Of a DNA stretch of 57,068 nt, positions 4,400 to 20,928 are shown piece after piece. Under the pieces are notes generated by a model. It did no database searches. It was not told where the DNA came from and was given only the letters and a program-made list of their open reading frames with translations. Positions within the stretch are counted from its first letter, which is position 1, and each line of letters opens with the position of its first letter. Origin of the DNA: Natronomonas sp. CBA1123 (GTDB taxonomy: Archaea; Halobacteriota; Halobacteria; Halobacteriales; Haloarculaceae); NCBI RefSeq assembly GCF_009741925.1, contig NZ_WPCC01000018.1, positions 1-57,068 on the forward strand. The letters are read 5' to 3'. A program made the translations under genes and the position numbers.

Positions 4400-6060
4400 G
4401 CGACGACACGCTCCGATTGGGCGTCGTCTGCTCGGGACCGACGATGCCGGCCTGGCAGGCGGAGTGTCTCCGCCGTCTCGAGGCGACGACCGACACACGG
4501 CTGGCGTGTCTCCTCGTCGACGATAGCCCTGTGGACTCGAACGGTTCAGGCCCCCGACGCTCGGGAGGCCTTTCGCGTCGGTTACTGGACGACCACTGTC
4601 AGTCGATGACGCCCGTCGACACCGCCGAAGAACTGCGCGACATCGAGCAGTTCGGTTGCTCGATACGGACCAGAGACGGCCGTCGACGCCTCGACGAAGT
4701 CGACGACGCCGTCGTTGCGGACGCCGGTATCGACGCTCTGCTCGCCTTCGCAGTCGACCGTGCGGCCGACAGCGTGTTGGCCGCGCCCCCGCTCGGCGTC
4801 TGGGCGTTCTCCCACGACGGAGCGGGGAGTCCACCGCCTGGCTTCGACGAACTCCTGGCCGGCGATCCCGTCACGACCGCCGAACTGTGGCGGCTCGCTC
4901 CCGACGGCGAGGCGGTTCCGCTCAGACGTGGGCACTTCGCGACGGTCGAACACTCGCTTCGAGTGACCGCCGACCAGGTCCGCTTCGGGACGGCGCGGTG
5001 GCCGGCACAGGTCGTGACGGACGTCCAGAACGGCCACGGCGAGTACGTCGACGGTGACCCCGTTTCCGTCGAGTGGGGCGGCGACCGAACGCCGACGGCC
5101 GGACGCGTCGCCCTCGCGTTCGGCAAACAGACGAAGGCACTCGCCGATATCGCACTCCAAGGGGCCGCCAACTGGACGGTCGGCGTCATCGACGCCCCGA
5201 TAGCCGAAGTCGCCGCCGACCCCGACGGTGTAGAGGTCGAGTGGCTCCAGTTGTCGGAACGGAACCGTATCGTCGCCGACCCCTTCGTCGCCCCCGTCGG
5301 CGGGAACCCGTATCTCTTCTTCGAGGACCTCCGATACGACGACGGCAAGGGAACCATCTCGTATCTCCCGCTGGACGGCGACTACCGACCCGACCGCATC
5401 CGACCCGCCTTCGAGACGCCGTATCACCTCTCGTATCCCTACCCGGTCGTTCACGAAGACACAACGTACGTCGTCCCGGAGATGGCCGAGAGCAGCGACA
5501 TCACGATGTACGAGCTGCACGCCCCCGACGAGTGGGAGCGGGTCGCGACCCTCGTGTCGGGAAACCGCGGCATCGACCCGACGATAGTCGAGTACGGCGA
5601 CCGCTTTTGGCTGTTCTGTACGCGCCTCGACGACTTGCCCCAGACGAACCTCTACGTGTATCACGCGCCCCATCCGACCGGCGAGTGGGTCCCGCACGCG
5701 AACAACCCGGTGAAAACCGACGTTCGGTCGGCCCGTCCAGCCGGAACGCCGTGGGTCGACGACGGAACGTTATACAGACCCTCCCAGTACTGCGCCGGCG
5801 GCTACGGCAAGAAGGTCATCGTCAACCGCATTCAGACGCTGACGCCGACTGAGTTCGCCGAGCGACGTGTCGGCGAACTCACGCCCGACCCGGAGGGGCC
5901 GTACCCGGACGGCCTCCACACGCTCTCCGGATACGGTGACGTGACGGTCATCGACGGCAACCGAAGCGTACGGGACACCTACCACGCCCGTCGTCGATTG
6001 CAACTCGCTGGCCGGGCGGCGCTCGGACGCCTCCCCCCGTCGCCGAACGTAGTCAGGTGA
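4396..6060 (+). CDS. Formyltransferase-like / five-bladed beta-propeller transferase
   Basis: The protein has 554 aa from GTG 4396, which overlaps the upstream stop (GTGA). About residues 1-200 resemble a formyltransferase fold that lacks the canonical catalytic HxSLLP stretch (GVWAFSHDGAG instead). About residues 230-530 resemble the N-terminal domain of glucosamine inositolphosphorylceramide transferases, a GH43-like propeller (LFFEDLRYDDGKG, YPYPVVHED, VVPEMAESSDI, CRTLDD-like FCTRLDDL). Such fusions occur in bacterial and archaeal polysaccharide loci. It probably transfers or decorates a sugar. The exact reaction is unknown. Its last 8 bases overlap the convergent gene. Confidence 0.65.
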   Translation: MSDDTLRLGVVCSGPTMPAWQAECLRRLEATTDTRLACLLVDDSPVDSNGSGPRRSGGLSRRLLDDHCQSMTPVDTAEELRDIEQFGCSIRTRDGRRRLDEVDDAVVADAGIDALLAFAVDRAADSVLAAPPLGVWAFSHDGAGSPPPGFDELLAGDPVTTAELWRLAPDGEAVPLRRGHFATVEHSLRVTADQVRFGTARWPAQVVTDVQNGHGEYVDGDPVSVEWGGDRTPTAGRVALAFGKQTKALADIALQGAANWTVGVIDAPIAEVAADPDGVEVEWLQLSERNRIVADPFVAPVGGNPYLFFEDLRYDDGKGTISYLPLDGDYRPDRIRPAFETPYHLSYPYPVVHEDTTYVVPEMAESSDITMYELHAPDEWERVATLVSGNRGIDPTIVEYGDRFWLFCTRLDDLPQTNLYVYHAPHPTGEWVPHANNPVKTDVRSARPAGTPWVDDGTLYRPSQYCAGGYGKKVIVNRIQTLTPTEFAERRVGELTPDPEGPYPDGLHTLSGYGDVTVIDGNRSVRDTYHARRRLQLAGRAALGRLPPSPNVVR

Positions 6061-6826
6061 CGGCACGACGAACGGCACTCCGGAGGAGATGCCACACCGT
6101 CATCGGGTGCGGCGAGATGCGGAGCGCCCGGAGGTAGTAGTCGACGGCGCGGTCGTAGTCGCCTTCCTCGTGGGCGAGGGTGCCGGCCTGCGTGAACGTC
6201 TGGACGTAGTAGGTGTACAGATACGGCTGGGCCTCCGGAACGCGCTGGCTGACGAGGTACGCAAAGCGCTTGTCGTGTTTCAGGAACGCTTCGGCGGAAA
6301 TCCCGCTGGCCATGACGCTTCCCTCGTGGAGTCGACGGGTGAACAACTCCGGACAGAGACAGACGCCCGCCTCCGAGGCCGCCTCCAGGACGTACAACAG
6401 GTCCTCGCCGCGCTCCAATCCGGCCTCGAAGCGGGCGTCCACCGAGTCGGTGTCGACCAGTACCGACGACATCACGGCTGTCAAATCACCGACGAAGGCG
6501 CGATAGACGAACTCGTCGGTCGCCATTGGGTTACCCTGCACGCAGATGCCTGCGCCCGTCTCGGCCAGCCGGTCGAGTTGGCGTTCGAGTTTGTCGGGTT
6601 CCCAGAGGTCGTCGGCGTCGAGGAAGGCGACGTACCGGGTGTCGGCCCGGTCGAGGCCGAGATTTCGAGCCACTGCCGGCCCCGCCCCGCCGTCGTCGTC
6701 GACGACGACCAACTCGGTGGGAACGGTCTGGGCGGCCACGGTCTCTTTGGCCTCTTCGAGCATCGATTCCGGCGTGTACGTCGGGCTGTACGGTATCACG
6801 ACCGAGACGGTCGGATGCGAGGTCAT
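6053..6826 (-). CDS. Glycosyltransferase family 2
   Basis: The protein has 257 aa and a GT-A fold. The N-terminus is TVSVVIPYSPTYTPESML, the nucleotide-binding LVVVDDDGGAGPAVARNLG follows, and the metal-binding acidic motif is VAFLDADDLW at about residue 80. The C-terminal 60 residues (THEEGDYDRAVDYYLRALRISP-like) look like a TPR helix pair. The start ATG 6826 overlaps the stop of the upstream gene by four bases (ATGA). It is the last gene of the minus-strand glycan operon. Donor and acceptor sugars cannot be read from sequence. Confidence 0.85.
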   Translation of the reverse strand: MTSHPTVSVVIPYSPTYTPESMLEEAKETVAAQTVPTELVVVDDDGGAGPAVARNLGLDRADTRYVAFLDADDLWEPDKLERQLDRLAETGAGICVQGNPMATDEFVYRAFVGDLTAVMSSVLVDTDSVDARFEAGLERGEDLLYVLEAASEAGVCLCPELFTRRLHEGSVMASGISAEAFLKHDKRFAYLVSQRVPEAQPYLYTYYVQTFTQAGTLAHEEGDYDRAVDYYLRALRISPHPMTVWHLLRSAVRRAVT

Positions 6827-7761
6827 CGATTCACGCCTCCGAGTCGTCGCCGCAACCCCGTAAGCGTCCACCACGGCACTCGGAGCCAGTTGCGGGGGTC
6901 GCGGAGCGTCTCCCAGCCGAGATACCGCCTCGCATCGAGGGGTCGACCCTCCCGAAGGAACACCCCGGCGACGGAAACGCGGTGTATCGAACGGATATCG
7001 GTTCCTTCGGCCTCGAAGCCGTCGATTCGGTCGGCGTGGCGGTCGAGGAACCTGCGCTTTGCGTCGGCGAGCGTCTCGGCAGGTGGGTCGCCACCAGATT
7101 CCGGCACCACCACGAGCGGTTCGTCGACGTGGGCTATCTTTCCGCGGTCGAGCAACTGAAGCACGAAATCCCAGTCCTCGTGGTCGACGAGTCCCTCGTC
7201 GAAGCGGAGTCCATCCAGCGCGTCCCGACGAACGAGCAGCGTCGACCCCGGCCCCATCAGGACGTTCATCGTCAGGATTTCTCGCGCCAACTCCCGGCCG
7301 CCTTCTCGGACTGCCGGATTCGCGAAGACGCGCCGCGAGAGCCAATCGAGTGCCTCACCGAACCGCGAGGGAGCAGGCGTGAGGAACTCACAGTAGACGC
7401 CGACCCACTCGGTCGAACACCGGGGCAGACGGTCGAGTTGTCGTTCGAGTTTGTGGGGAAGCCAGCGGTCGTCGGAATCGAGGAAAGCGACGTACTCGCC
7501 GCGAGCGGCGTCGATGCCGGTGTTTCTGGCGGCGCTTCGGCCGCGGTTGCGGTCGTGGGCGAGATAGCGGACCCGAGCGTCGTCGTAGCCCTCGACGACA
7601 GCGGCAGTGTCGTCGGTGGACCCGTCGTCGACGACGAGCACCTCGATGTCGTCGACGGTCTGTGCGAGGGCGCTGTCGATGGCCCGACGGAGTACGCCAG
7701 CGCGGTTGTACGCTGGAATCACGACCGAAACGAGCGGAGCGTCGTCGGCGGTGTCGGTCAC
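6823..7761 (-). CDS. Glycosyltransferase family 2
   Basis: The protein has 312 aa. It shows a classical GT2 N-terminal domain: PLVSVVIPAYNRAGVL, then VLVVDDGSTDDT, SAARNTGIDAA and the DxD-type FLDSDDRWLP near residue 95. A His/Glu pair in LVDHEDWDFVLQLL fits the catalytic-base region. The C-terminal part is helical. The gene overlaps its downstream neighbour by 4 bp and lies 7 bp from the upstream GT4 gene, so it is part of a tightly packed operon. Confidence 0.88.
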   Translation of the reverse strand: MTDTADDAPLVSVVIPAYNRAGVLRRAIDSALAQTVDDIEVLVVDDGSTDDTAAVVEGYDDARVRYLAHDRNRGRSAARNTGIDAARGEYVAFLDSDDRWLPHKLERQLDRLPRCSTEWVGVYCEFLTPAPSRFGEALDWLSRRVFANPAVREGGRELAREILTMNVLMGPGSTLLVRRDALDGLRFDEGLVDHEDWDFVLQLLDRGKIAHVDEPLVVVPESGGDPPAETLADAKRRFLDRHADRIDGFEAEGTDIRSIHRVSVAGVFLREGRPLDARRYLGWETLRDPRNWLRVPWWTLTGLRRRLGGVNR

Positions 7762-7768
7762 GCTAGCA

Positions 7769-9004
7769 TCACTCCATCACGTCGCGGTGAATGTCGGTCA
7801 CCTGCTCGGCGTGTTGTTGCCAGGTCCAGCCCTGTTCGAGCAGGCGCTCGTGACCCGCCGCACCCATCTCGCGGAGGCGGTCGGGGTCGTCCAACAGCCG
7901 GTCGATGGCCGCCGCCAGCGCGTCGGGGTCTTTCGGTTCGAGGAGTTCGCCCGTCTCGCCGTCCGCGACCATCTCGGGGATCCCGCCAACGTTCGAGGCC
8001 AGCACCGGTGTCTTCGCGGCCATCGCCTCGTAGATGACCGTCGGCCGGGCTTCGACCCAACTCGGATGGACCAGCAGGTCGGCGGCGATTTGCCACCGTC
8101 GGAGTGCAACGGGGTCGAGGCGCCAAAACGAGTGGGCGGGATGTGGCAGTTCGCCGAGGTGGTCGAGCAGCCACCACCGGAGGTCGCCCTCGTGGCCCAC
8201 CGTGGCGAGATACACGTCGTCACGGTCGAGCAGCCCCATCGCTTCGACGAGGTCCTCGATGCCTTTCTGTTCGACGTAGGCGCCGACGAACAGCAGGAGT
8301 TTCGTATCGGGGTCGACGCCGAGTTCGTAGCGAATCGCCTCGCGTTGGTCGGTTGGGAACTTCTTGGGGTCCTCGCCGATGGGGACGGTCTCGACTTTCG
8401 CGGGGTCGGCCAACTCGCGGGCGACCTCGGCGAGTTCCTCGCTGACCGTAATCACGCGGGAGGCGTACTCGACGGTCTCCCGGAGGCGGGCCTGTGCCTC
8501 CTCGTTGAACCGGTCGTAGTTCTTCAAATCGCCTGCGTGGCTGGTGACCACGAGCGGGATGTCGTGTTTCCGGCAGTACGGCAACATCCCGTAGCCGTCC
8601 ATGTAGATGTCGCAGGCGTGGACGATGTCGTGTGGCGTCCCGAAGGTCCGCTCGACGTAGTTCGAGACGCGCTTCTGCATCGAGTCCCCGGAGACGTGGT
8701 AGAACTGCTTTTTCGGCAGCATGTAGAGGAACCGGGGGTAGTGCGCGGTGTAGGTGCCCCAGCGTTCGGTCTGGGGCACGTCGCTGTACTCGGAGTGAGG
8801 ACCGACCGGCGGTGCGAACGGCGTCGGTACCACCACGTCGAGGTCGGCGTCGGTCCGGTTGATGGCGTCCAACGAACGGTGGTTGAACGGCGCACGAACC
8901 TGGAAGACGTGGCTCTGGTGGTGGGTCGCACAGGCGAGTACCCGGTATGGGTCGCCCTCGCGGTCGGTCGTCCGGTCGTCGGTCGGGTGGTTCGAATCCG
9001 TCAT
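7769..9004 (-). CDS. Glycosyltransferase family 4 (GT-B fold)
   Basis: The protein has 411 aa with two Rossmann domains. The C-terminal half carries the GT4 signature: LLLFVGAYVEQKGIEDLVEA, ADLLVHPSWVEARPTVIYEAMA with the E-x7-E type motif, and ASNVGGIPEMVADGETGELL. It is a cytoplasmic or membrane-associated retaining sugar transferase using a nucleotide sugar. It overlaps the upstream gene by four bases. Substrate unknown. Confidence 0.88.
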   Translation of the reverse strand: MTDSNHPTDDRTTDREGDPYRVLACATHHQSHVFQVRAPFNHRSLDAINRTDADLDVVVPTPFAPPVGPHSEYSDVPQTERWGTYTAHYPRFLYMLPKKQFYHVSGDSMQKRVSNYVERTFGTPHDIVHACDIYMDGYGMLPYCRKHDIPLVVTSHAGDLKNYDRFNEEAQARLRETVEYASRVITVSEELAEVARELADPAKVETVPIGEDPKKFPTDQREAIRYELGVDPDTKLLLFVGAYVEQKGIEDLVEAMGLLDRDDVYLATVGHEGDLRWWLLDHLGELPHPAHSFWRLDPVALRRWQIAADLLVHPSWVEARPTVIYEAMAAKTPVLASNVGGIPEMVADGETGELLEPKDPDALAAAIDRLLDDPDRLREMGAAGHERLLEQGWTWQQHAEQVTDIHRDVME

Positions 9005-10236
9005 AGCTGTGAGTCGATGAGTTCGGTGAGCGTCGAGTCGAGTTTCTCGCCGACTGCGCGCCGGTCGTAGCGAGCCTCGACGTGTTGTCTCCCCCGTTCG
9101 CCCATCCGCTCGCGGAGGTCCGAATCCGAGAGGAGTCGGTCGAAGGCCGCCGCCAGCGCTTCGGGGTCGGAGTCGACGGCGAGGCCGCCGCCGGACTCCT
9201 CCAGTAGTTCCGCCAGCGCGCCGATGTCGGTCCCGACGACGGGGAGGCCGCAGGCCATGTACTCGTAGGTCTTCGAGGGGACGGCGTACCGAAGCCCCTC
9301 GCTGTCTTTGAGCGTCGCGATGCCGACGGCCGCCGACGCCAGAAGCGGCGGTATCTCCGAGCGGGGAACCGGTTTCTCGATGGAGACGCGGCCGGCCACC
9401 TCGAGTTCCTCGATTAGCGATTCGAGTCGGCCCCGAAGGTCGCCATCGCCGACGAGTCGGAGGTGGGCGTCCGACTCGACGTACTGCATCGCACGCACGC
9501 AGGCTTCGAGGTCCTGTGCGTGGCCGAAGTTGCCCGTGTAGACGATGCTCCGGCCGTCGTCGCCGTCGCCTGCGTCGGGCGTGAACCGGCGGACGTCGAC
9601 GGCGTTCGGAATCACGACCAATCGGCGGGCGATTGCCGGGCCGTGGCCGCGTTCGAGCAGTCGACTCATCTCGTCGGTCGTCGTGAGTACGCGGTCGGCG
9701 CGCAACAGGACGAGGTGTTCGTACCGTCGGGTGAGTCGCGTCGAGAGACTCGTCTCGCGGATAAATCCGAGACTCGCCGCCGCGTCTATCCAGAGGTCAC
9801 CCACGTCGACGACGAACGGTTTTCGAGTGAGTTCGCTGGCGATGAGGCCCGGCATCGACGTGAACGGCGGCGGCGTCGTACAGAGGTAGGCGTCGAACCG
9901 GTTCCGGTGGTACAACAGCCACAGCGTCGCGTGGACGGCGAAGACGAGGTAGTAGGCCAACCGTTCGAGGGCGTTCGGGTCGGCACGGGTCGGCTGCCAA
10001 CTCCACAGTCGGTGCACGTCGACGCCATCCTCGACGACGTGCTCGTGTCGCTGCCAACTCCGCGGGTAGTTCTCCGGCGGGTACGACCGCGGCGGCGCGA
10101 GGACTGACACGTCCCATCCCACCCGGGCCAGTTCTCGGGCGCTGTCACCGACGCGAGTAGCGTTGCCGCCGAGTTCCGGGGGGTACTGCTGGCTGACGAC
10201 GGCGACGTGGCCACGGCTGTCGTCAGTCGTCGCCAT
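9001..10236 (-). CDS. Glycosyltransferase family 4, WbuB-like
   Basis: The protein has 411 aa. The N-terminal domain has QQYPPELGGNATRVGDSARELA, a WbuB-type glycine-rich start. The C-terminal domain has SIVYTGNFGHAQDLEACV, VGIATLKDSEGLRYAVPSK and TYEYMACGLPVVGTDIG. WbuB-like enzymes add amino sugars such as FucNAc or ManNAc derivatives, which fits the adjacent UDP-GlcNAc 2-epimerase, but that substrate is inference. The gene overlaps wecB by 14 bp. Confidence 0.87.
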   Translation of the reverse strand: MATTDDSRGHVAVVSQQYPPELGGNATRVGDSARELARVGWDVSVLAPPRSYPPENYPRSWQRHEHVVEDGVDVHRLWSWQPTRADPNALERLAYYLVFAVHATLWLLYHRNRFDAYLCTTPPPFTSMPGLIASELTRKPFVVDVGDLWIDAAASLGFIRETSLSTRLTRRYEHLVLLRADRVLTTTDEMSRLLERGHGPAIARRLVVIPNAVDVRRFTPDAGDGDDGRSIVYTGNFGHAQDLEACVRAMQYVESDAHLRLVGDGDLRGRLESLIEELEVAGRVSIEKPVPRSEIPPLLASAAVGIATLKDSEGLRYAVPSKTYEYMACGLPVVGTDIGALAELLEESGGGLAVDSDPEALAAAFDRLLSDSDLRERMGERGRQHVEARYDRRAVGEKLDSTLTELIDSQL

Positions 10237-11326
10237 CGCCCACCTCCTGTAGCACGTCGAGGATTCGCTCGGCGGCGTGGCCGTCGCCGTACGGTGGCTC
10301 CCAGTCGGTCGGCGCCGAGAGGGCCTCCGCGACCGACTGTCGGATGTCCTCGGGGTCGGTTCCGGCCAGCCGATTCGCGCCGATTTCGACCGTCTCCTGC
10401 CGTTCGGTGTTGTCCCGGACGGTCACACACGGCGTTCCGAGGACGGCCGCCTCCTCTTGGACACCGCCGGAGTCGGTGACGACGACCGCGGCCCGGTCTT
10501 CGAGCAACAGGAAACTCAGGAAGTCCTCGGGGTCGACGACCCGAATCGGTGCCGGAATGTCGATGTGGAACTCGCGTATTCGGCCGACGCTCCGAGGGTG
10601 GGCCGGGAACACGCAGTCGAGGTCGTTGTCCGCGGCGGCCGCCGCGACGCCCTCGAGAACGTTTCGGAACCGGGTTTCGTCGTCGACGTTCTCGGCGCGG
10701 TGGGCCGTCAGGAGGAGGAACTCGCGGTCGTCGAGGCCGAGTCGGTCGAGGACATCGCTCTCTCGGGCGGCGATATCGGCATGCTGTCGAACTGCGTCGA
10801 CGACGGTGTTACCGGTGACCCAGACGCCGGCTTCGATGCCCTCCTCGGCGAGCTGTCGCCGTGCTCGCTCGGTCGGTGCGAACAGGTAATCGGCGGCGTG
10901 GTCGGTCAGCACGCGATTGTGCTCTTCGGGCATCGAGCGGTCGAAGCTCCGAAGGCCCGCCTCGACGTGGGCGAGTGCCGGGTCGAGTTTGCAGGTCGTA
11001 ATCGCTCCCGCGAGCGTCGAGTTCGTGTCGCCGTGGACGACGACGACGTCGGGGTCGACGTCGGTCACGACGGGGTCGAGTGCGGACACCATCGAACCGG
11101 TCTGTCGGCCGGGGGTATCGGACCCGACGCGGAGTTCGTAGTCGGGAACCGGAAGCCCGAGTCCCTCGAAGAACACGTCGTCGAGTTCCCGGGAGTAGTG
11201 TTGGCCGGTGTGGACGAGGGTGAACGGCATCCCGCGGCGCTCTGCCTCCCGAATCAGCGGCGCACACTTGATAATCTCTGGACGGGTGCCGAAGACGAAC
11301 GCCAGCGACGGCGGTTCAGTAGCCAT
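10223..11326 (-). CDS. wecB: UDP-N-acetylglucosamine 2-epimerase (non-hydrolysing)
   Basis: Interconverts UDP-GlcNAc and UDP-ManNAc in the cytoplasm. Family motifs are complete: FGTRPEIIKCAPL near residue 10, VVHGDTNSTLAG, HVEAGLRSFDRSMPEEHNR, LLLTAHRAEN, VTDSGGVQEEA and GTPCVTVRDNTERQETVE. The length of 367 aa is normal. ATG 11326 is chosen over an upstream in-frame ATG (11386), because the extra 20 residues are basic and not family-like. No UDP-ManNAc dehydrogenase (wecC) lies in the window. Confidence 0.93.
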   Translation of the reverse strand: MATEPPSLAFVFGTRPEIIKCAPLIREAERRGMPFTLVHTGQHYSRELDDVFFEGLGLPVPDYELRVGSDTPGRQTGSMVSALDPVVTDVDPDVVVVHGDTNSTLAGAITTCKLDPALAHVEAGLRSFDRSMPEEHNRVLTDHAADYLFAPTERARRQLAEEGIEAGVWVTGNTVVDAVRQHADIAARESDVLDRLGLDDREFLLLTAHRAENVDDETRFRNVLEGVAAAAADNDLDCVFPAHPRSVGRIREFHIDIPAPIRVVDPEDFLSFLLLEDRAAVVVTDSGGVQEEAAVLGTPCVTVRDNTERQETVEIGANRLAGTDPEDIRQSVAEALSAPTDWEPPYGDGHAAERILDVLQEVGDGDD

Positions 11327-11434
11327 CGAACACGGGCGCTGTCTGTTTGGTGAACGTGAGATTCGACACTGCTCTTCTTTCGACAACTCCTACTGGCTGT
11401 TTATGTCTTCCGGGCAGGCGGCCGAGCGCGACGT

Positions 11435-12697
11435 TCAGGGCGTATCGACGCCGGTGCCGGCGTCGCCGAGCGCTCGGAACCCACCAGTTCCCGGGTGCTC
11501 GTGGGTGACGGTCACGTCCACGGCCGGCCCGTCGTAAAACGACGGACTGTCGGGGTCGTTCGGTGCGGTGAGGTTCACTACGTTCTCCGAGAGCCGCGCC
11601 TCGGTGCCGACCCGGTAGTACGACCCGAGACGTTTCCTCGCGGGAGGTGTCCCGCTTTCGGGGTCGGTTCCCACCTCGTAAACGTAGCGTGCCGTCCCGG
11701 TGGCTTGCTTGATGTTTCCGATGGTCGCCGGGCCGCGACCGAGGAGTCGAACGATGGCCTCCGGAACGGCCCGCTGGTCGACGGGTTCCCAGTGGATGCC
11801 CTCCGCGTGGAACTGGCTGCCGCCGGTCTGGTGGACCGCTGGGCCGACTGTACCACCGAGCGTCAGTTGGTCGATGTGCTGGGTGCCGCCGCGGGTGAAA
11901 ACCGCAGTCGAGTCCCGGCTGCTCTCGGTCGCCGTCGGATAGGCGGCGACGGTGCCGAACCAGTTGGCCGGACCGTACGACGACCGAAACTCGAAGAGGC
12001 CGTCGGCGTCACCGGCGTCACAGTCGTAAACCGTCAGGTGGTCGTGACGACACTGGAATGGACCCGTCCCCGACTCGACGCGATAGACGCTGTCGTTCCA
12101 GCCCCAAAAGAGGAGTCGGCCGACTGAGAGGTCCTGTGTGTTGCCGCCGCTGTGTCGTATCGCAACGCCCGACGGTTCGCCCGGACCGGGACCGTTCAGT
12201 GCGAAGCCGTCGAGTCGAATTCGGTTGACACCAGCATCGCGGTCGAACCGAATCCCGTCGGTGCTTGGTGGGACGCCGACCTCCGAGACGCCGGGTCCGA
12301 AGCCGACGATTGCGGTGTCGGAGTACGGCCGAATCGCTCCACGTTCGAAAACGGAGGCGGGCGGAAGCCGAAGCTCGCCACCGCGGTTCGCCCCGAGAAA
12401 ATCGAGGCCGTCTTGAATCGGTGTGTCCGTCGTCTCGGGGTCAATCTCACCTGCCGTCTCCGACCCCCTGGTGAGGACGACCACCTTCCCATCGAGCAGT
12501 GCGGAATCGACGTTGTCGACGCGCTCGACGGCGGCGCCATCACCGTTTCCGTCGCCGTTCTGATTGGCACCGTCACCGTTGGTCACTCCAAGCGATTCGA
12601 GACAGCCGGCTGTGGCCGACAGCGCTGCGGCGCCGGCAGCGAGATACGAACGGCGAGAGAAGGTCGGCGGACCACCGTCCGTGGAGGGTCGGGTCAT
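11435..12697 (-). CDS. Tat lipoprotein with tailspike-like parallel beta-helix
   Basis: The protein has 420 aa. The N-terminus has a twin-arginine motif (SRRSYLAAG) and lipobox (ATAGC), then a Gly/Asn/Asp-rich linker, then a beta-helix-like domain of about 330 residues with turns such as LDGFALNGPG and IRHSGGNTQDL. From residue 100 onward it aligns closely with the next gene (12773-14089): shared blocks are FQCRHD, SYGPANWFG, FTRGGTQ and IHWEP. It was probably exported folded and anchored on the cell surface. It may bind or cleave a surface polysaccharide. No catalytic residues can be named. Confidence 0.75.
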   Translation of the reverse strand: MTRPSTDGGPPTFSRRSYLAAGAAALSATAGCLESLGVTNGDGANQNGDGNGDGAAVERVDNVDSALLDGKVVVLTRGSETAGEIDPETTDTPIQDGLDFLGANRGGELRLPPASVFERGAIRPYSDTAIVGFGPGVSEVGVPPSTDGIRFDRDAGVNRIRLDGFALNGPGPGEPSGVAIRHSGGNTQDLSVGRLLFWGWNDSVYRVESGTGPFQCRHDHLTVYDCDAGDADGLFEFRSSYGPANWFGTVAAYPTATESSRDSTAVFTRGGTQHIDQLTLGGTVGPAVHQTGGSQFHAEGIHWEPVDQRAVPEAIVRLLGRGPATIGNIKQATGTARYVYEVGTDPESGTPPARKRLGSYYRVGTEARLSENVVNLTAPNDPDSPSFYDGPAVDVTVTHEHPGTGGFRALGDAGTGVDTP

Positions 12698-12772
12698 GAT
12701 TATGAAAGAACTGCAGAGCGGATATAGATAGTCGTCGCTTACCGGTGGGTCGCAGAAGGCCAGTCCAGTTCG

Positions 12773-14089
12773 CTATCCCATCGGGGTCCCGGCGGTCCCG
12801 AGCGCACGGAGCCCGCCGGTGTCGGCCTCGGAGTGGGAGACGGTCACGTCGTCGGGGTCGCCGAGGTAGAACGACTGCATCCCGGAGTCGTTCGCAGACG
12901 AGAGGTTGACGACGTTTTCGGAGATGTCGGCCTCGGCGCCCCGCTCGTAGTAGGGGCCGAGCCACTTTCGGGCTGGGGCGTTGGCGTTGTAGGAATCGTA
13001 GGCCAGTTCGTAGACGTACTCCGCGACGCCGGTGACGTGTTTGACGCTCCCGATTTCGGCGGGCCCGTGACCCTCCAACAGGACGACCCGCTGGGGCGTC
13101 GACTCCAAGCCGATGGGCTCCCAGTGGACGTTGCCGAACCGAACCTGGGCGTCCCACGTCTGGTGGATTGCCGTTCCGGATGTGCCGCCCATCGTGAGGT
13201 AATCGACCGTCTGGGTTCCGCCCCGGGTGAAAAACACCGTCGAGTTCGACCCGGAGAACTGCGAGGTCGGGTAGGCGGCGATGGTGCCGAACCAGTTGGC
13301 CGGGCCGTACCACGAGTTGAACTCGAAAAGACCGTCTTCGTTGCCCGCGTCGCACTCGTAGATGGTCAACAGGTCGTGGCGACACTGGAAGGGACCGACG
13401 CCTTCGTCGACGCGGTAGACGGCGTTGTTCCAGCCCCAAAACACCATCCGACCGACGTAGAGGTCCTGTGTGTCGCCGCCGCTGTGTCGAATCGCGGCGC
13501 CGGATTCGGAGTTCAATCCGGGGCCGTTCAGCCCGAATCCGTCGAGTTTCACGCGGCTGACGCCGCTGGAAGACTCGAACCTGATGCCGCCGATTCCGGG
13601 TTCGGTAATCGATATTTCGGAGACGGTCGGGCCGAATCCCGTAATCGCCGTATCCGGATATGGGTAGATGGTTTCGCTCTCGGAGACCGGATTCGGCGGA
13701 AGCCGAATCTCGCCACCTCCGCCGTTACCGAGTATCTCCATCGCGTCACCGACGGGCGTCGACGTGTCGTCGGGGTCGACGAACTGCGGGGTCGAGGCGT
13801 TGCTGGCGAGCGCGACCACGAAGCCGCTGATGAGCGCTTCGGTGATGCTGCTGTCGACGGCACTACCGAAGGCCCCGAGTTCGTTCCAGTCGGTTCCGTC
13901 GCCGAGATAGACGCGGCCGGTGTCGGTTGCGAGGAACTTCGCTCCCTGCTTCGGCGTGTAGTCGTCCCTGTTCGCCTGTACGTCTCGAACCTCGACGTCG
14001 GTGTCGATGCGCTCGAAGTTCTCGTTGAGGGGAACGTGCCAGTCTAGGGTACCTTCCTGCGGTGTGTCGTAGTCGTGGTTTTCGGTCAT
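12773..14089 (-). CDS. Tailspike-like parallel beta-helix protein without signal peptide
   Basis: The protein has 438 aa and is a paralogue of the gene at 11435-12697, sharing the C-terminal 330 residues. Its N-terminus differs. There is no signal peptide. A phage-tail-fibre-like segment is present instead: TLDWHVPLNENFERIDTD, then FLATDTGRVYLGDGTDWNEL, which resembles head-binding or collar regions of virus spikes. A pectate-lyase-like fold is inferred from the regular short strands and Gly/Asn turns. It starts 7 bp after the LamG gene. How it leaves the cell, if it does, is unclear. Confidence 0.75.
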   Translation of the reverse strand: MTENHDYDTPQEGTLDWHVPLNENFERIDTDVEVRDVQANRDDYTPKQGAKFLATDTGRVYLGDGTDWNELGAFGSAVDSSITEALISGFVVALASNASTPQFVDPDDTSTPVGDAMEILGNGGGGEIRLPPNPVSESETIYPYPDTAITGFGPTVSEISITEPGIGGIRFESSSGVSRVKLDGFGLNGPGLNSESGAAIRHSGGDTQDLYVGRMVFWGWNNAVYRVDEGVGPFQCRHDLLTIYECDAGNEDGLFEFNSWYGPANWFGTIAAYPTSQFSGSNSTVFFTRGGTQTVDYLTMGGTSGTAIHQTWDAQVRFGNVHWEPIGLESTPQRVVLLEGHGPAEIGSVKHVTGVAEYVYELAYDSYNANAPARKWLGPYYERGAEADISENVVNLSSANDSGMQSFYLGDPDDVTVSHSEADTGGLRALGTAGTPMG

Positions 14090-14096
14090 GAGGGTG

Positions 14097-15212
14097 TTAG
14101 TTGGTCGTACCGCCGTAGCCGCCTTCGCCGTAGCCCAGTCGGCCGTACTCGCTGTCGTCGGCTGGGGTTGGTGTCGGGGTCGGCGTCGGTTCGGGTGTCG
14201 CAGTTTCGGTGGGTGTTTGCGTCGGTTCGGGTGTGGGGGTTGCAGTCGGTGTCGCGGTCGGCTCCGGTGTCGGAGTAGGCGTCGCGGTTGGTTCGGGTGT
14301 GGGCGTTGGTGTCGCGGTCGGTTCCGGTGTCGAAGTGGACGTTACCTCGTCGGCGTCGTCGGTGCCCTCGTAGACGGCGGCAACATCCTCGGCCGCCAAT
14401 GCCGTCGCGTAGACCCGAACGTCGTCGATACCTCCGGCCATCTCGTAGGTGGAACTCCAGCCGTTGTCGCCGCGGGCGACGTACAGCGGGTTCGTCGAGT
14501 GCTGAATCTCCCCCGACTGCGATTCGTCGCGGGCGAGTTCCTCACCATCGAGATAACAGACGAAGGCGTCACCATCCCACGTCAGCATGATGTGATGCCA
14601 CTCGCCGTCGTGGGTCGCGACCCCCCAGGGGTTGAGTCGGGCGGTTCCGCTGTCGACGCCGAGGTGTGCCCGCAGGCTATTTTCGGTTTGCACGTCGACG
14701 GCGTAGCCGACATCGCCGGTTAGCGAATCCGCCTTCTGGAGGACGGTCTGACTCGTCGCGCCGCTTTCGGTCCTGTACCAGGCCCCGAAGCTCATCTGCT
14801 GTCGGGGTCGGAGTGCAGCGTCGTCGGCGACGACGACGTAGTTGCCGGTGCTGTCGCGGAAGTCGAACGCGCCCGCGCCTCTGACGCCCGACGCGCCGAG
14901 CACCGGGTCGCCGCGAATCTCGCCGTCGAGTCCGCCGACAGCGTCGTGTGCGGTCGTGCCGTCAGCCTCGTCGAACGTCCACCGACTCACGGCCGGCGGC
15001 AGCGAGGAATAGTCCTCGACAGCAGTAACGGCCATTGGAACGCCGCCGTACCCGTATCGAATCGTGTCGGTGGACCTGCCGGGCAGCGACAGGTCGTCGG
15101 TGACACAACCCGCCGTCCCGACGGCCGTCGCTGCGAGCCCGGTGAGCTTCACGTACGCCCGCCTCGACAGGTCGGACCCCGACTGCCTATCGCTGGGTGG
15201 TTCTTCGGCCAT
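14097..15212 (-). CDS. LamG-domain Tat lipoprotein with Pro/Thr-rich stalk
   Basis: The protein has 371 aa. The Tat signal ([11 protein letters not shown]) ends in a lipobox (GTAGC). A short aromatic segment [10 protein letters not shown] follows. Residues about 77-285 form a LamG/concanavalin-A-like jelly roll ([51 protein letters not shown]). A stalk of about 60 residues made of [10 protein letters not shown]-type repeats leads to a tail [13 protein letters not shown]. The domain order suggests a surface-displayed sugar-binding protein; the stalk may be O-glycosylated. It is the first gene of the minus-strand operon. Confidence 0.82.
14155..14345 (-). repeat. Low-complexity Pro/Thr/Glu-coding repeat (stalk)
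   Basis: Imperfect tandem units encode [10 protein letters not shown]-like decapeptides within the LamG lipoprotein. The repeat is coding, not CRISPR-like. Unit number probably varies by slippage. Confidence 0.8.
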
Positions 15213-15727: not shown

Positions 15728-16943
15728 ATGACACAGCACGAGGATACGTCGCCTTCGGCGGCGGATCGAGTTCTTCCAGGGCACGCTAGATAGTACCTCG
15801 GAGATAAGCGAGGCCCGAATTTTCGACACGACGCTGCGCGACGGCGAACAGTCCCCGCGAACCTCGTTCAGTTACGAGGACAAACGCGAAATCGCGGCCG
15901 TCCTCGACGACATGGGCACCCACGTCATCGAGGCCGGCTTCCCCGTGAACTCCGACGCGGAGTTCGAAGCGGTGCGGGACATCGCCGAAGCCACGTCGTC
16001 CACAGTCTGCGGGTTGGCCCGCGTCGTGGACAAAGATATCGACGCCGCGTTGGATTCCGGCGTCGGCATGGTACACGTGTTCTGTTCGACGAGCGACGTA
16101 CAGCTACAGGATTCGATGCACACCAGCCGAGAGGAGGCGCTGGAGCGGTCCATCGAGGCCGTCGAGCGCGTCAAAGACGCCGGTGTGACCTGCATGTACT
16201 CGCCGATGGACGCCACGCGTACCGACGAATCGTTCCTGATTGATGTCATCGAGGGCGTCTCCGACGCGGGGACGGACTGGATAAACATTCCCGACACCTG
16301 TGGGGTTGCGACGCCACGGCGGTTCTACGACATGGTCGAGACCGTCTGTGAGCACACGGACGCCGACATCGACGTCCACACCCACGACGACTTCGGATTG
16401 GCAGCCGCCAACGCGCTGTCCGGCTACGAGGCCGGCGCCGCTCAGGCGCAGGTGTCGGTCAACGGCATCGGCGAACGCGCCGGCAACGCGGCCTACGAAG
16501 AGGTCGTGATGGCGCTGGAGTCGCTGTACGACGTCGACACCGGCATCAAAACCGAGCGCATCACGGAACTGGCGCGTCTCGTGGAGGGCAAAAGCGACAT
16601 CGCCATCCCGGCGAACAAGCCCATAGTGGGCGACAACGCCTTCTCTCACGAGTCCGGCATCCACGCCGCCGGCATCATCGAGAACGCCGACACGTTCGAG
16701 CCGGGCGTGATGACGCCGCAGATGGTCGGTGCGACACGCGAGTTGGTGCTGGGGAAACACACCGGCACCCACTCCGTCCGCCAACGGCTGGAAGAAGCCG
16801 GGTTCGACCCGAGCGACGCCGAGGTCCGCGAAGTGACCCGGATGGTCAAGGACCGCGGCGCGGCCGACGAGAAGGTCACCTTCGAGACGCTCAAGGAGTT
16901 GGCCCGGGATGTAGGCGTCCGACGCGAGGAGGTTCGCGCATAG
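15728..16943 (+). CDS. leuA: 2-Isopropylmalate/citramalate synthase family (apparent +1 frameshift near the start)
   Basis: Condenses a 2-oxo acid with acetyl-CoA at the entry to leucine (or isoleucine via citramalate) synthesis. The HMGL-like TIM barrel motifs are intact: FDTTLRDGEQSPRTSF with the metal-binding Asp, DVHTHDDFGLAAANAL and NGIGERAGNAAYEE. The frame encoding EFFQGTLDSTSEISEARIFDTTLRDGEQ has no ATG, GTG or TTG between its upstream stop (15729) and ATG 15912, and starting at 15912 would delete the active site. The promoter-supported ATG 15728 reads a different frame and stops at 15791-15793. One extra base (or two missing) between about 15750 and 15775 reconciles them. LeuA and citramalate synthase cannot be separated by eye. 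Confidence 0.8.
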
Positions 16944-17069
16944 GGATGCCCCCCGCGGACGGTTTCGCCCCGTGGCAGCGACCGGTGAGTGGCCACGCCG
17001 GCGGACCGTCGGGCAACGCTCGCGCGACACGGAATCCTTATGTCGGTTCACGGCACAACATCGACTGTA

Positions 17070-17261
17070 ATGAATGCGACCGCTGGACCCGGCACGCTCG
17101 CGCTTGCCCCCCAGCGTCGCGACGATTATTGTAGGGGCGGCCTAGCCCCTACACACCCTTCTTTCCGACGCGGTTCGCATCGCTTTCAGCCGATTACAGA
17201 CAGGACAATGGACACACGACACAGCAATCGACGGTATCGCACGCGAGGTGACGCCTCATGA
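17070..17261 (+). other. ilvB leader region with possible leader ORF
   Basis: Between leuA and ilvB lies a 314-bp gap. A 63-codon ORF from ATG 17070 (also extendable to ATG 17040) runs to a TGA overlapping the ilvB ATG by four bases. Its product would be Arg-rich and basic, unlike the acidic proteome, so it is probably regulatory or non-coding. CTTATG near 17036-17041 could be its box A. The stretch contains the perfect hairpin at 17131-17152. An attenuator-like control of ilvBNC-leuCDB is possible but unproven. Confidence 0.35.
17131..17152 (+). promoter_or_regulatory. Perfect hairpin in the ilvB leader
   Basis: GTAGGGGC, loop GGCCTA, GCCCCTAC: an 8-bp perfect GC-rich stem about 105 nt before ilvB. 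An alternative shorter pairing (TAGG with CCTA) is mutually exclusive. It could act as an attenuator, processing site or protein-binding site. There is no following T-run typical of an archaeal terminator. Confidence 0.55.
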
Positions 17262-19003
17262 GCGGCGAACAGGCACAGGCACCACAGGACGCCGAAACGT
17301 CCGAAACGACCACCGGTGACATCGAGACGGGCGCGGATGCGGTCGTCCGCGCACTCGAGAACGCCGGGGTCGAACACCTCTTCGGCGTGCAGGGAGGGGC
17401 CATCATGCCCGTCTACGATGCCCTGTATCACTCCGAGATGGACCACATCACGATGGCCCACGAACAGGGCGCCGCCCACGCCGCCGACGCCTACGGCATC
17501 GTCTCCGGCGAGCCGGGCGTCTGTATGGCTACGTCGGGACCGGGGGCGACGAACCTCGTCACCGGCATCGCCGACGCCAACATGGACTCGGACCCCCTCA
17601 TCGCGCTGACGGGACAGGTCCCCACGGAGTTCGTCGGCAACGACGCCTTCCAGGAGACCGACACCATCGGCGTCACCAGCCCAATCACGAAGGCGAACTT
17701 CTTCGCCGACGATTCCGAAGCGGTCGGCACCGACGTCGGCACCGCCTTCGCGCTCGCGAAACGCGGCCGGCAGGGACCGACGCTGGTCGACCTGCCGAAG
17801 GACGTGACGAAAGGCGACGCCAGCGAAGACCCCGGCACTCCGGAGACGCCGGACACGTACAACCCGCCGGAGACGGCCGAACCCGAAGCGGTCGCCGAGG
17901 CCGCCGACGTGCTCGCCGAGGCGGACCGACCGGTCATCCTCGCCGGCGGCGGCGTCATCAAAGCCGAAGCCTCCGAGGAGATTCGGGAATTCGCGAAGGA
18001 ACACGAGATTCCGGTCGTCACGACGATGCCCGGCATCGGCGCGTTCCCCGAAGACCACGAACTCTCCCTGGAGATGGCCGGAATGCACGGTACCGGCTAC
18101 GCCAACATGGCCATCACGATGACCGACTGTATGCTCGCAGTCGGGACGCGCTTCGACGACCGCCTGACCGGTGGGCTGGAGACGTTCGCGCCCGACGCGG
18201 AGGTCATCCACGTCGAAATCGACCCCGCGGAGGTCTCGAAGAACGTCGAGGCCGACTACCCGCTCATCGGCGACGCCAAAGCCGTCACCAAACAACTGGC
18301 GACGGCGATGCCACGGTCGCCGGCCTGCGACGAGTGGCGCGAGCAGGTCCAGCAGTGGAAAGACGAGTATCCGATGGACTACGCTGCGCCCGAAGACGAC
18401 CCGGTCAAACCGCAGTACGTCGTCGAGGCCTTCGACAATGCGACCGACGACGACGCCATCGTCACGACCGGCGTCGGCCAACACCAGATGTGGGCCTGCC
18501 AGTACTGGACGTACAAGGAGCCCCGCACATGGGTGTCCTCTCACGGCCTCGGTGCGATGGGCTACGGCGTTCCCGCCACCATCGGCGCGAAACTGGCCGC
18601 GCCCGACAAGGACGTGGTCTGTTTCGACGGCGACGGCTCGTTCCTGATGACGTGTCAGGGACTCTCGGTTGCGGTGCGTGAGAACCTCGACATCACCATC
18701 GTCGTGTTGAACAACGCGGCCATTGGGATGGTCCGACAGTGGCAGGACGCCTTCTTCGGCGAGCGCCACATGGCCTCGGAGTACCCGTGGATTCCGGACT
18801 TCGACACGCTCGCCGAGGCCTTCGGCGCACGCGGCTTCCGCATCGACACCTACGACGAGGTCGAAGAGGTCGTCGAGGAGGCGCTGGCCTACGACGGGCC
18901 GAGCGTCGTCGACGCACACATCGACCCCGGCGAGAACGTCTACCCGATGGTTCCCAGCGGCGGCGACAACGGGCTGTTCGCCCTCTCGGAGGACCAACTA
19001 TGA
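17258..19003 (+). CDS. ilvB: Acetolactate synthase large (catalytic) subunit
   Basis: A thiamine-diphosphate enzyme forming acetolactate or acetohydroxybutyrate in valine, leucine and isoleucine synthesis. It has 581 aa with an acidic N-terminal extension of about 20 residues. Catalytic Glu69 sits in AHEQGAAHAADAYG. The central FAD-type domain is present, and the ThDP/metal motif GDGSFLMTCQGL...VLNN lies near residue 450. It overlaps ilvN by four bases (ATGA), so subunits are translationally coupled. The start is set by the overlap with the leader ORF and family length. Confidence 0.96.
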   Translation: MSGEQAQAPQDAETSETTTGDIETGADAVVRALENAGVEHLFGVQGGAIMPVYDALYHSEMDHITMAHEQGAAHAADAYGIVSGEPGVCMATSGPGATNLVTGIADANMDSDPLIALTGQVPTEFVGNDAFQETDTIGVTSPITKANFFADDSEAVGTDVGTAFALAKRGRQGPTLVDLPKDVTKGDASEDPGTPETPDTYNPPETAEPEAVAEAADVLAEADRPVILAGGGVIKAEASEEIREFAKEHEIPVVTTMPGIGAFPEDHELSLEMAGMHGTGYANMAITMTDCMLAVGTRFDDRLTGGLETFAPDAEVIHVEIDPAEVSKNVEADYPLIGDAKAVTKQLATAMPRSPACDEWREQVQQWKDEYPMDYAAPEDDPVKPQYVVEAFDNATDDDAIVTTGVGQHQMWACQYWTYKEPRTWVSSHGLGAMGYGVPATIGAKLAAPDKDVVCFDGDGSFLMTCQGLSVAVRENLDITIVVLNNAAIGMVRQWQDAFFGERHMASEYPWIPDFDTLAEAFGARGFRIDTYDEVEEVVEEALAYDGPSVVDAHIDPGENVYPMVPSGGDNGLFALSEDQL

Positions 19004-19632
19004 GTCGGAATCAGGACCTCCACCGGAACGGGCTGGAAGGTCCGGCGCCGGAAGAGCGAACCCGACCGGTCGGACGGCGGAACAAACAGGGCATCCGCGT
19101 CGACCCCGACGTGGAGGCCGAACACGAACCGCGCCGGACCATCATCTCGGCGTACGTCAAGGACGAACCCGGCGTGCTCGCGCGCGTCTCGGGGCTGTTC
19201 CACCGCCGGCAGTTCAACATCGAGTCGCTGACCGTCGGGCCGACCCAAAACGAGGGCTACTCCCGCATCACGTTGGTCATCGAAGAGCCCGACCCCGGCA
19301 TCGACCAGGCGAAAAAGCAGTTGAACAAACTGCTGCCCGTGGTCCACGTCCGTGAGTTGGACGCCGAACCCGTCGCCCGCGAGTTGGTCATCCTGAAGGT
19401 CAACGGGGACGAACCGGACAAGGTCCAGGCTATCACGGAGATGTACGGCGGCGAGACGCTCGACGCCGGCCCACGGACGATTACGGTCCAGATTACCGGC
19501 GACGAGGGGAAGATAGACGACGCTATCGACGCCTACGAGCAGTTCGGCATCCGGGAAATCGCCCGAACCGGACAGGCAGCGCTGGCACGAGGCGAAGAGG
19601 AAACCGCACGAGTTGACGAGACCCATACATGA
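19000..19632 (+). CDS. ilvN: Acetolactate synthase small (regulatory) subunit
   Basis: The protein has 210 aa. An ACT domain spans about residues 45-115 ([34 protein letters not shown]), where branched-chain amino acids bind for feedback inhibition, followed by the usual C-terminal alpha/beta domain ([20 protein letters not shown]-type). ATG 19000 overlaps the ilvB stop, and its own stop overlaps the ilvC ATG. The first 35 residues are a haloarchaeal extension rich in Arg and Glu. Confidence 0.95.
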
Positions 19633-20624
19633 CTGACGCAACTATCTACTACGACGACGACGCAGACAGCACCGTACTCGACGACAAGACCGTAGCCGTT
19701 CTCGGCTACGGCAGCCAGGGCCACGCCCACGCACAGAACCTCGACGAATCGGGCGTGGACGTGGTTGTCGGTCTCCGTGAGGATTCCTCTTCCCGCAGCG
19801 CCGCTGAATCCGACGGCCTCGACGTGGCGACGCCGCGACAGGCAGCCGAACAGGCCGACCTCGTTTCGGTTCTCGTCCCCGACACGGTCCAGCCGGCCGT
19901 CTACGAGGAGATACAGGACGTGCTGACGCCCGGCGACACGCTGCAGTTCGCCCACGGCTTCAACATCCACTACGGCCAAATCGAGCCGAAGGAGTCGGTC
20001 AACGTCACGATGGTCGCACCGAAGTCCCCCGGCCATCTCGTTCGACGGAACTACGAGAACGACGAGGGGACGCCCGGCCTGCTGGCGGTCTATCAGGACC
20101 CCAGTGGCGAGGCCCACGACATCGGGCTGGCCTACGCGAAGGCCATCGGCTGTACGCGGGCGGGCGTCGTCGAGACCTCCTTCCGCGAGGAGACCGAAAC
20201 GGACCTCTTCGGCGAGCAGGCCGTCCTCTGTGGCGGCGTCACCTCGCTGGTCAAGCAGGGCTACGAGACGCTGGTCGAAGCCGGCTACTCCCGGGAGATG
20301 GCGTACTTCGAGTGCCTGAACGAACTGAAACTGATTGTCGACCTGATGTACGAGGGCGGCAACAGCGAGATGTGGGATTCCGTCTCCGACACCGCCGAGT
20401 ACGGCGGGTTGACTCGCGGCGACCGCGTGGTCGACGAACACGCCCGCGAGCGGATGGAGGAAGTCCTCGAAGAGGTACAGGACGGCACCTTCGCGAAAGA
20501 ATGGATTACCGAGAACCAGGCCGGCCGCCCGAGTTACAAGCAACTGCGGGCCGCCGAGAAGAACCACGACATCGAGGACGTGGGCGAGGACCTGCGCGCG
20601 CTGTTCGCGTGGGGTGAGGAGTGA
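19629..20624 (+). CDS. ilvC: Ketol-acid reductoisomerase
   Basis: Converts acetolactate to 2,3-dihydroxyisovalerate with NAD(P)H and Mg2+. It has 331 aa, the class I length. The Rossmann fingerprint [17 protein letters not shown] lies near residue 25. The cofactor-discriminating loop [13 protein letters not shown] has an Asp/Glu plus several Ser. The knotted C-terminal domain includes the metal ligands ([31 protein letters not shown]). It overlaps ilvN by four bases. Confidence 0.96.
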
Positions 20625-20625
20625 G

Positions 20626-20928
20626 ATGACAGAGGACACCGACATGACAGACGACGACACACCGGAGACACTGGGCGAGATGAGCCACACCAACCCCATC
20701 ACGGGCGAGGTGTTCGGCAGCACACAGACGTACAGTCGCGGGAAGACCGTCGCGGCCGACGGTGGCGAGGCGAACGCAGTGAGCCGACCCTCGTCGGAGT
20801 CGTCCGACGGTGGCGAGGCGAACGCGGTTCCCGACGAGACCGAGACGCTGGGCGACGTGAGCCACACGCCGCCGGGCGACAGCGACGGCGCACAACGCGC
20901 CTACGACCGTGGTGTAAACGATGAGTGA
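20626..20928 (+). CDS. Small acidic repeat protein between ilvC and leuC
   Basis: This 100-aa acidic protein has two copies of a short unit: [13 protein letters not shown]...YSRG and [13 protein letters not shown]...YDRG, separated by a linker that itself repeats DGGEANAV. A small ORF at this place is also known in the Haloferax ilv-leu operon. There is no catalytic motif and it is probably largely disordered. ATG 20626 lies just after the ilvC stop, and the 3' end overlaps leuC by 8 bp. It may be an assembly or regulatory factor of the pathway, but that is a guess from position. Confidence 0.75.

Follow-up and report, generated by a model that had tools for sequence, protein, structure and literature searches.

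A virus-type fibre module and a Gly-Tyr-tagged Tat lipoprotein in haloarchaeal glycan loci suggest a route for the display of a signal-less beta-helix spike

The cohesin–dockerin system assembles many different surface proteins on one principle, namely by pairing a small tag with a small docking module. Tail structures of viruses have been domesticated as tailocins, contractile injection systems and gene transfer agents. Hitch-hiker complexes of the twin-arginine translocation (Tat) pathway are known as well, for instance those of bacterial hydrogenases and of dimethyl sulfoxide reductase. Signal-bearing partners are reported to ferry other proteins through Tat (PMC10924467), and in haloarchaea Tat is predicted to carry 39-55% of the secreted proteins and most lipoproteins (PMC2945643). 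Here we analyze a stretch of 57,068 nt from Natronomonas sp. CBA1123 (assembly GCF_009741925.1, contig NZ_WPCC01000018.1, positions 1-57,068 of the forward strand), which we call the window. It encodes a signal-less protein of 438 amino acids (aa) with a predicted beta-helix fold, the spike, directly behind a Tat lipoprotein which carries a LamG domain and a C-terminal Gly-Tyr tag. We consider it rather probable that a viral fibre-docking pair was moved onto this lipoprotein, which would carry the folded spike through Tat and anchor it by the cell's own polysaccharide.

Transcription runs along the minus strand from the LamG lipoprotein to the spike, a 420-aa paralogue of the spike, a UDP-N-acetylglucosamine (UDP-GlcNAc) 2-epimerase and four glycosyltransferases. 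The first three genes of this order contain the following features.

14097..15212, minus strand: Tat lipoprotein with a LamG domain, 371 aa, the proposed anchor and carrier (Laminin_G_3, E 1.2e-21; signal and tag read from the translation)
15105..15164, minus strand: twin-arginine motif to lipobox Cys of the LamG lipoprotein, residues 17-36 (read from the sequence)
15042..15056, minus strand: N-terminal YGYGG motif of the LamG lipoprotein, residues 53-57, shortly past the lipobox (from the sequence; similar [FY]GYGG in other partners)
14110..14147, minus strand: C-terminal Gly-Tyr tag of the LamG lipoprotein, the proposed docking peptide (pattern match)
12773-14089, minus strand: spike, 438 aa, whole open reading frame (ORF; with its translation)
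13862..14089, minus strand: N-terminal tail-fibre module of the spike, residues 1-76, without a signal peptide (profile E 5.9e-44)
12773..13850, minus strand: right-handed parallel beta-helix domain of the spike, about residues 80-438 (AlphaFold2 prediction; VIA fold comparison)
11435..12697, minus strand: paralogous beta-helix protein, 420 aa, with its own Tat lipobox signal and without the module (55% identity to the spike)

Judged by sequence comparison, residues 1-76 of the spike are a separate unit, which we call the module. A profile built from 17 examples of it was used to search 391 Halobacteria genomes, and the module was found in 102 of them and in 43 of 86 genera, ahead of many different C-terminal parts. 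With our own gene calling in 91 loci, 90 of 94 module proteins start the module at residue 5 or earlier, and a strongly hydrophobic N-terminus is present in none of the 94 (the maximal 15-residue mean hydropathy within the first 70 residues is 1.11). The module may also be encoded on its own. At L078, L082, L087, L112, L142 and L143 a tag lipoprotein is followed by a stand-alone module of 97-188 aa and then by a signal-less protein of the beta-helix type (a Pfam check was made for L082 and L142). Because these loci keep module and beta-helix separate, the window spike resembles a fusion of two genes. In three further proteins the first half of the module, with its motif of the DWHVPLNENF type, occurs at the C-terminus instead and is followed by a short coiled-coil-like stretch (L129:6340-7680, L130:19642-19899 and L136:491-1618). 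When the module is predicted alone, AlphaFold2 gives a helix at residues 18-27, which hold the WHVPLNENF motif, and then short strands, with a block predicted local distance difference test score (pLDDT) of 82-89 for residues 31-70. We found no description of the module or of the tag in the open-licence PubMed Central literature. Two module frames with internal stop codons, possibly decayed copies, were seen at G184:C19:115244-115468 and G109:C1:1645373-1645648.

The tag was followed with a strict pattern, [FY]GxxG[FY]GxxG[FY]GG, and with a loose motif, [YF]G.{0,4}G[YF]G. The loose motif is present in 50 of the 78 same-strand genes directly upstream of module genes, in 56 of the 330 genes that lie up to two places from a module gene in either direction, and in 12 of 1100 other genes. 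In 20 control stretches taken from comparable genomes, 3 of 366 genes contained it. The strict tag was found in 58 of the 391 genomes, and the module in 55 of these (Fisher p = 1e-34, not corrected for kinship; this value overstates independence because the sampled genomes are related). Moreover, for 43 of 66 strict tags a module match follows on the same strand at a distance of 12-152 bases from the end of the tag. This adjacency is a lower bound, as 130 module places were entered and L132 is a further case. In the window's own genome the strict pattern has a single match, namely the C-terminus of the LamG lipoprotein, where the tag ends about 20 bases ahead of the spike ATG; the gap between the two genes is 7 bases. 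An earlier note on this DNA, made from the letters of the window, had left this tag out.

A directly upstream tag partner was found for 48 of 89 distinct module proteins. Among these partners 42 of 48 have both RR and a lipobox-like Cys, and another 5 have RR alone. By sequence, the spike and the LamG lipoprotein are likewise a signal-less protein adjoining a partner with a Tat signal. The recurring elements of the partners are the lipobox, an [FY]GYGG motif and the C-terminal [FY]GxxG[FY]GxxG[FY]GG. Their middle part alternates between LamG (cluster 9, directly upstream of the spike gene in 25 loci), CBM35 (cluster 20, 11 loci) and a third kind (cluster 26, 7 loci). Because minimal partners of 78-118 aa hold little beyond a lipobox, a YGYGG-like motif, a Thr-rich spacer and the tag, we regard the tag, and not LamG, as the constant part. 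Proteins with the Gly-Tyr tag near the N-terminus instead of at the C-terminus, several of which have a visible Tat signal, were noticed in L128:8930-10324, L133:18318-19214, L134:10006-10503, L137:8824-9279 and L138:8223-9329. A membrane-type protein of 62 aa with a noted stretch of 14 residues at its end is found in Haloarcula (L057:19874-20062, L119:18414-18602) and is perhaps a second kind of anchor.

The earlier note had described the 438-aa and 420-aa proteins as paralogues with common C-terminal blocks, one with a Tat lipoprotein signal and the other signal-less with a virus-fibre-like N-terminus. This description agrees with what we find. BLASTP aligns the two with 208 of 376 identical residues (55%, E = 1e-144), and the blocks FQCRHD, YGPANWFG and FTRGGTQ all lie within the alignment. 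The 420-aa protein starts with MTRPSTDGGPPTFSRRSYLAAGAAALSATAGC, in which a Tat motif and a lipobox are recognized by eye. The spike has NENFERIDTD and TDTGRVYLGDGTDWN near its start and lacks a hydrophobic N-terminus. In two families, that of the window and cluster 25 (L078), the same beta-helix is found either in the arrangement with the module or with its own Tat lipobox signal. Thus, module-plus-partner and own Tat signal look interchangeable, and it is mainly for this reason that we propose export of the signal-less form. The earlier note had placed only one copy at the surface; we think that the signal-less copy is most likely there too, by way of the LamG lipoprotein.

We suggest that display could proceed as follows. 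The spike, in which a docking domain like that at the N-terminus of tailed-virus fibres precedes a beta-helix, would fold in the cytoplasm, probably as a trimer. The LamG lipoprotein, made just ahead of it in the operon, has a Tat signal, a lipobox, LamG, a long Thr/Pro spacer and the C-terminal YGxxGYGxxGYGG tag. This tag would stand in for the tail tip of the virus and bind the docking module, and the folded complex would then leave via the Tat pore on the signal of the lipoprotein, that is, by hitch-hiker export. The lipid would keep the spike attached to the membrane on its outside, and spacer and LamG could hold it at the polysaccharide that the glycosyltransferases encoded nearby produce. 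In this position the beta-helix might bind or modify the polysaccharide as a lyase, hydrolase or epimerase type of protein. The 420-aa paralogue, which has a Tat lipoprotein signal itself, would get there on its own. From the genes we infer that tag and module bind physically, that they are exported as a complex, that the spike is a trimer and that it acts on glycan.

The module is also present on a virus. In a provirus of genome G087 (L140), both halves of the module lie in order on a 159-aa protein encoded two genes after the tape measure and downstream of head genes, so that a homologous module occupies the position of a fibre gene (L140/L440). The gene between the tape measure and the module gene contains a related stretch, FGRGAYGQFSYNQGGLGG. 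Nearly all of the module profile can be aligned to the provirus protein, with both motifs in the same order, and the window module is 37% identical to the virus module over 52 residues (E 1e-11 in a single comparison). Two viral contigs of IMG/VR carry the same provirus module protein with 92% and 100% identity; the GenBank phage records, queried with the provirus module and its neighbour, gave no match. As to described families, Mtd_N (PF18454) is matched by 14 of the 17 module sequences at E up to 10, with 9.2e-5 as the best value. The window module itself scores 19.7 bits, under the curated cut-off of 26.3, and is not counted as a member. PHROGs searched with the 17 sequences returned weak matches to unnamed families (best E 4e-4), and the module profile had one chance match only among the sequences of the Protein Data Bank (PDB).

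Tag and fibre motif also occur together in phages. Phage contigs chosen for the DWxxPLNxNF motif contain tags of the same kind (L037, L039, L158, L160 and L164), which amounts to 5 in 200 kb compared to 0.4 in shuffles, with a maximum of 3 in 50 shuffles. When viral contigs were instead selected by the tag, 17 of 120 had an ORF carrying the fibre motif, and 0 of 41 did when the selection was by a control pattern (p = 0.005). A stricter first version, with the motif downstream of the tag and within 8 kb, gave 4 of 120 and 0 of 41 contigs. The gene after a C-terminal tag opens with a motif like W-x-x-[PDE]-LN-x-x-[FLWY] (LNxxF-type) in all 6 usable phage cases versus 10 of 574 background ORFs. 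The motif was called by eye in L170 and L278 and by regular expression in L206, L218, L250 and L429. At L206 this gene looks by eye like a beta-helix spike (TTDDTTAIQAALDAA...FLPPGSY).

For the rest of the spike, AlphaFold2 with 22 sequences confidently predicts a right-handed beta-helix from about residue 80, as the earlier note had expected (overall mean pLDDT 82, block means of 84-97 over residues 81-420 and below 50 for residues 1-50). This parallel beta-helix is a prediction and not a solved structure. In the VIA comparison it comes nearest to the epimerase AlgE4 (Z 27.4, the highest value), followed with Z 24-27 by several tailspikes, phi29 gp12 and the adhesin PfbA; the identities are 8-15%. 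Because AlgE4 ranks level with the tailspikes, fold comparison does not discriminate between a viral and a cellular origin of the predicted beta-helix. A search with the spike found no viral homologue of the beta-helix domain in 50,697 GenBank phage records, and a full-length profile found none in IMG/VR, in each case at the sensitivity of the search. PHROGs gave no match to either beta-helix protein, and the spike sequence had chance-level matches only among solved structures. Thus, the idea of the earlier note that a viral spike had been captured is supported for the N-terminal module, which is of a viral type by its place in a provirus tail cassette and its sub-threshold match to Mtd_N, but not for the whole spike, as no viral homologue of the beta-helix was found in these collections.

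Within the spike family R226, R237, D247, H322 and E324 are invariant. The very near relative Natronomonas gomsonensis (L042) has a spike 97% identical to that of the window. In comparison with this species the ratio of nonsynonymous to synonymous substitution rates (dN/dS) is 0.08 for the spike and 0.26 for the Tat copy, and both genes look to be under purifying selection. A search of the window's own genome found no third copy. In many relatives a module-less paralogue is encoded close to the spike, and a signal can be seen in several of these paralogues. Since spike and module-less copy each occur across several genera, the pair did not arise by a local duplication, contrary to what the earlier note had supposed. 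In a tree of the beta-helix family 14 module-less copies form one clade (99/99), the copies of window/L042 and of L076 are unplaced, and long branches are flagged.

The setting is one of glycan synthesis. In module loci of 20 kb a glycosyltransferase is encoded in 37 of 52 (102 genes) versus 4 of 20 control stretches (4 genes), and a flippase in 25 of 52 versus none of 20. The loci of named relatives contain nucleotidyltransferases, glycosyltransferases and a GINT1_N-type protein, and that of Halobaculum also glmS, glmM and glmU. On pHH400 of Haloarcula hispanica two module proteins are encoded next to a CBM35 partner, together with aglF and with genes of the sulfatase and flippase types. Papers on the exopolysaccharide of Haloarcula hispanica name HAH_1662, HAH_1667 and HAH_1206. 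The homologue of the GINT1_N-type protein (cluster 8) is found in 26 loci and is located downstream of the spike gene in many relatives. The glycan neighbourhood described in the earlier note, with a LamG lipoprotein, a WecB-like epimerase and four glycosyltransferases, is borne out by Pfam matches in the window and recurs as a glycan locus in the relatives; neither a fold other than a beta-helix nor a set of homologues unrelated to glycan loci or viruses was found. The neighbouring genes of the window are listed below.

10223..11386, minus strand: UDP-N-acetylglucosamine 2-epimerase, WecB-like (Epimerase_2, E 5.7e-106)
9001..10236, minus strand: GT4 glycosyltransferase (Glyco_trans_1_4, E 3e-23)
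7769..9004, minus strand: GT4 glycosyltransferase (Glycos_transf_1, E 1.7e-32)
6823..7761, minus strand: GT2 glycosyltransferase (Glycos_transf_2, E 1.1e-38)
6053..6826, minus strand: GT2-like glycosyltransferase with a TPR-like end (Glycos_transf_2, E 5.9e-13; 6053-6742 scanned)
4606..6060, plus strand: GINT1_N-type protein (GINT1_N, E 3.1e-29, scored on the longer ORF 3427-6060)

Beside the glycan operon, positions 15912-23950 of the window hold an apparent biosynthesis cluster of the leucine/isoleucine type, as judged from the translations.

We note that several observations weigh against a docking pair which exports the spike. No strict tag was found in 47 of the 102 module genomes, and 41 of 89 distinct module proteins have no directly upstream tag partner; some of these have a partner at another position of the same locus, and no partner was found for others. 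Three tag genomes (G168, G307 and G337) have no module, and in G337 the tag is simply a repeat of glycine and phenylalanine. The strict pattern also gives chance matches, because its reversed form, which served as a control for composition, was found in about 20 genomes as well. The hydropathy test discriminates poorly, with 6 of 43 partners above 1.6, because Tat signals are only weakly hydrophobic. The module has low confidence in the model of the full-length spike, and the best Foldseek matches of the module, although phage fibres, have E values of 0.27 or worse. In the viruses, only the said 17 of 120 tag-bearing contigs show an ORF with the fibre motif, and in the Streptomyces phages LuckySocke and BRock the annotated tailspike/tail fibre has an N-terminal NWDxPLN and the preceding gene has no tag.

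With this in mind other explanations have to be considered. Tag and module could belong to one surface system without binding each other. In that case the tag would make the end of the lipoprotein sticky or turn it towards the glycan, and the spike would leave by another route. Such an arrangement would fit the proteins of L128, L133, L134 and L137, which have the tag near the N-terminus and no adjoining module gene, and also the 41 of 89 module proteins without an adjacent partner; it appears unlikely to us, as partners reduced to anchor, spacer and tag still adjoin module genes and the neighbourhood of tag and fibre recurs in phages. Even less probable is a cytoplasmic spike whose substrate would be a precursor of the polysaccharide, either lipid-linked or a nucleotide sugar, with the operon merely coordinating supply. 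The 0 of 94 count for strongly hydrophobic N-termini and the cytoplasmic glycan-building genes around the spike gene speak for this explanation, but the spike's own paralogue has a Tat lipoprotein signal, a docking module of extracellular viruses and a beta-helix fold are unexpected in a precursor enzyme, and the tag lipoprotein would be left without an account. The two beta-helix proteins might further be an ordinary family of secreted polysaccharide lyases or epimerases, the viral-looking N-terminus being a convergent trimerisation domain. The highest VIA Z value, that of AlgE4 (27.4), the equal scores of non-viral enzymes and adhesins, and the beta-helix without a viral homologue in the searched collections point in this direction. 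We nevertheless judge it improbable, to about the same degree as the cytoplasmic spike, as the module profile matches the provirus protein nearly end to end with both motifs in order.

Finally, the genes could be remnants or parts of a virus-like particle, be it a provirus, a tailocin or a contractile injection system, with the spike as receptor-binding protein. In favour of a particle are the module on the provirus and a lone gene similar to the tail-tube gene gp19 of phage T4, which directly precedes a module gene at L036:11541-13216 and L094 (genomes G046 and G253) and at L066, a case cut by the contig end. This module protein carries a Peptidase_S74 chaperone domain (Pfam, L036) and is followed by a small Tat protein with GYGEGGFGVGGFGEGG, and the set lies between giant pyrroloquinoline quinone (PQQ)-propeller proteins. 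No further tail genes are annotated in the wider region around the gp19 gene of Natronosalvus. Genes for gp19 tail tubes, mostly paired, are found in 80 of 391 Halobacteria genomes and possibly belong to contractile injection systems or tailed proviruses; adjacency to the module was seen in only two of these 80 genomes, and gp19 as a regular partner of the module was rejected. The window's own genome has no gp19 and its locus thus lacks the gp19 plus further tail genes of a contractile injection system. Also, no tail or head genes were seen around the window pair or in the annotated loci of the relatives, hence the pair is not encoded with virion tail genes. A particle therefore seems very improbable.

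Returning to the docking pair, we tentatively suggest, at slightly less than even chances, a general haloarchaeal display system in which signal-less proteins with an N- or C-terminal module are exported via Tat and anchored by a tag lipoprotein. The same pair would be an unnamed fibre-attachment code of tailed phages, with the Gly-Tyr tag on the tail tip and the WxxPLNxNF module on the fibre. If this is true, a part that attaches receptor-binding fibres in viruses would have become the cell's route, free of signal peptides, for surface sugar-active proteins, and this in roughly one in four of the haloarchaeal genomes sampled. It would provide a simple rule to find exported haloarchaeal proteins which signal predictors miss, a candidate rule for fibre attachment in some tailed phages, and a two-part tag for surface display. 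It would also raise the question whether the spikes alter the encounters of the cells with viruses that use the same fibres; a role as decoy or shield against such viruses is possible.

In comparison with the known systems, the haloarchaeal pair resembles cohesin and dockerin in that a small tag goes with a small docking module. The sequences are however unrelated, the source appears viral, and a scaffold protein with multiple docks was not seen. As in the domesticated tail structures, viral tail parts are retained by cells, but the module loci have no tube, sheath or baseplate save for the rare gp19 gene. With the AlgE4 C5-epimerase and the tailspikes (2pyg, HK620, Sf6, phi29 gp12) the spike, in a comparison of the fold, shares the predicted right-handed beta-helix (VIA Z 24-27), at 8-12% identity. 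The Tat hitch-hikers provide the model of a signal-less protein encoded beside a partner with a Tat signal. In contrast to these, the partner here is a lipoprotein with a short repeated tag, and the cargo would be a beta-helix spike, exported together with it. Among viral proteins the anchors of tailed-phage fibres and tailspikes are closest (Mtd_N, PF18454; streptococcal phage hyaluronidase, 2c3f; Bordetella phage Mtd, 1yu0-1yu4). Unlike these anchors, the haloarchaeal module is encoded in cellular glycan loci behind a lipoprotein, and in the window its Mtd_N score is below the cut-off. Like them, it is N-terminal and signal-less, stands before exchangeable receptor-binding or enzyme domains and has the TDTGRxYxGDG motif, and the whole module is carried by a haloarchaeal virus.

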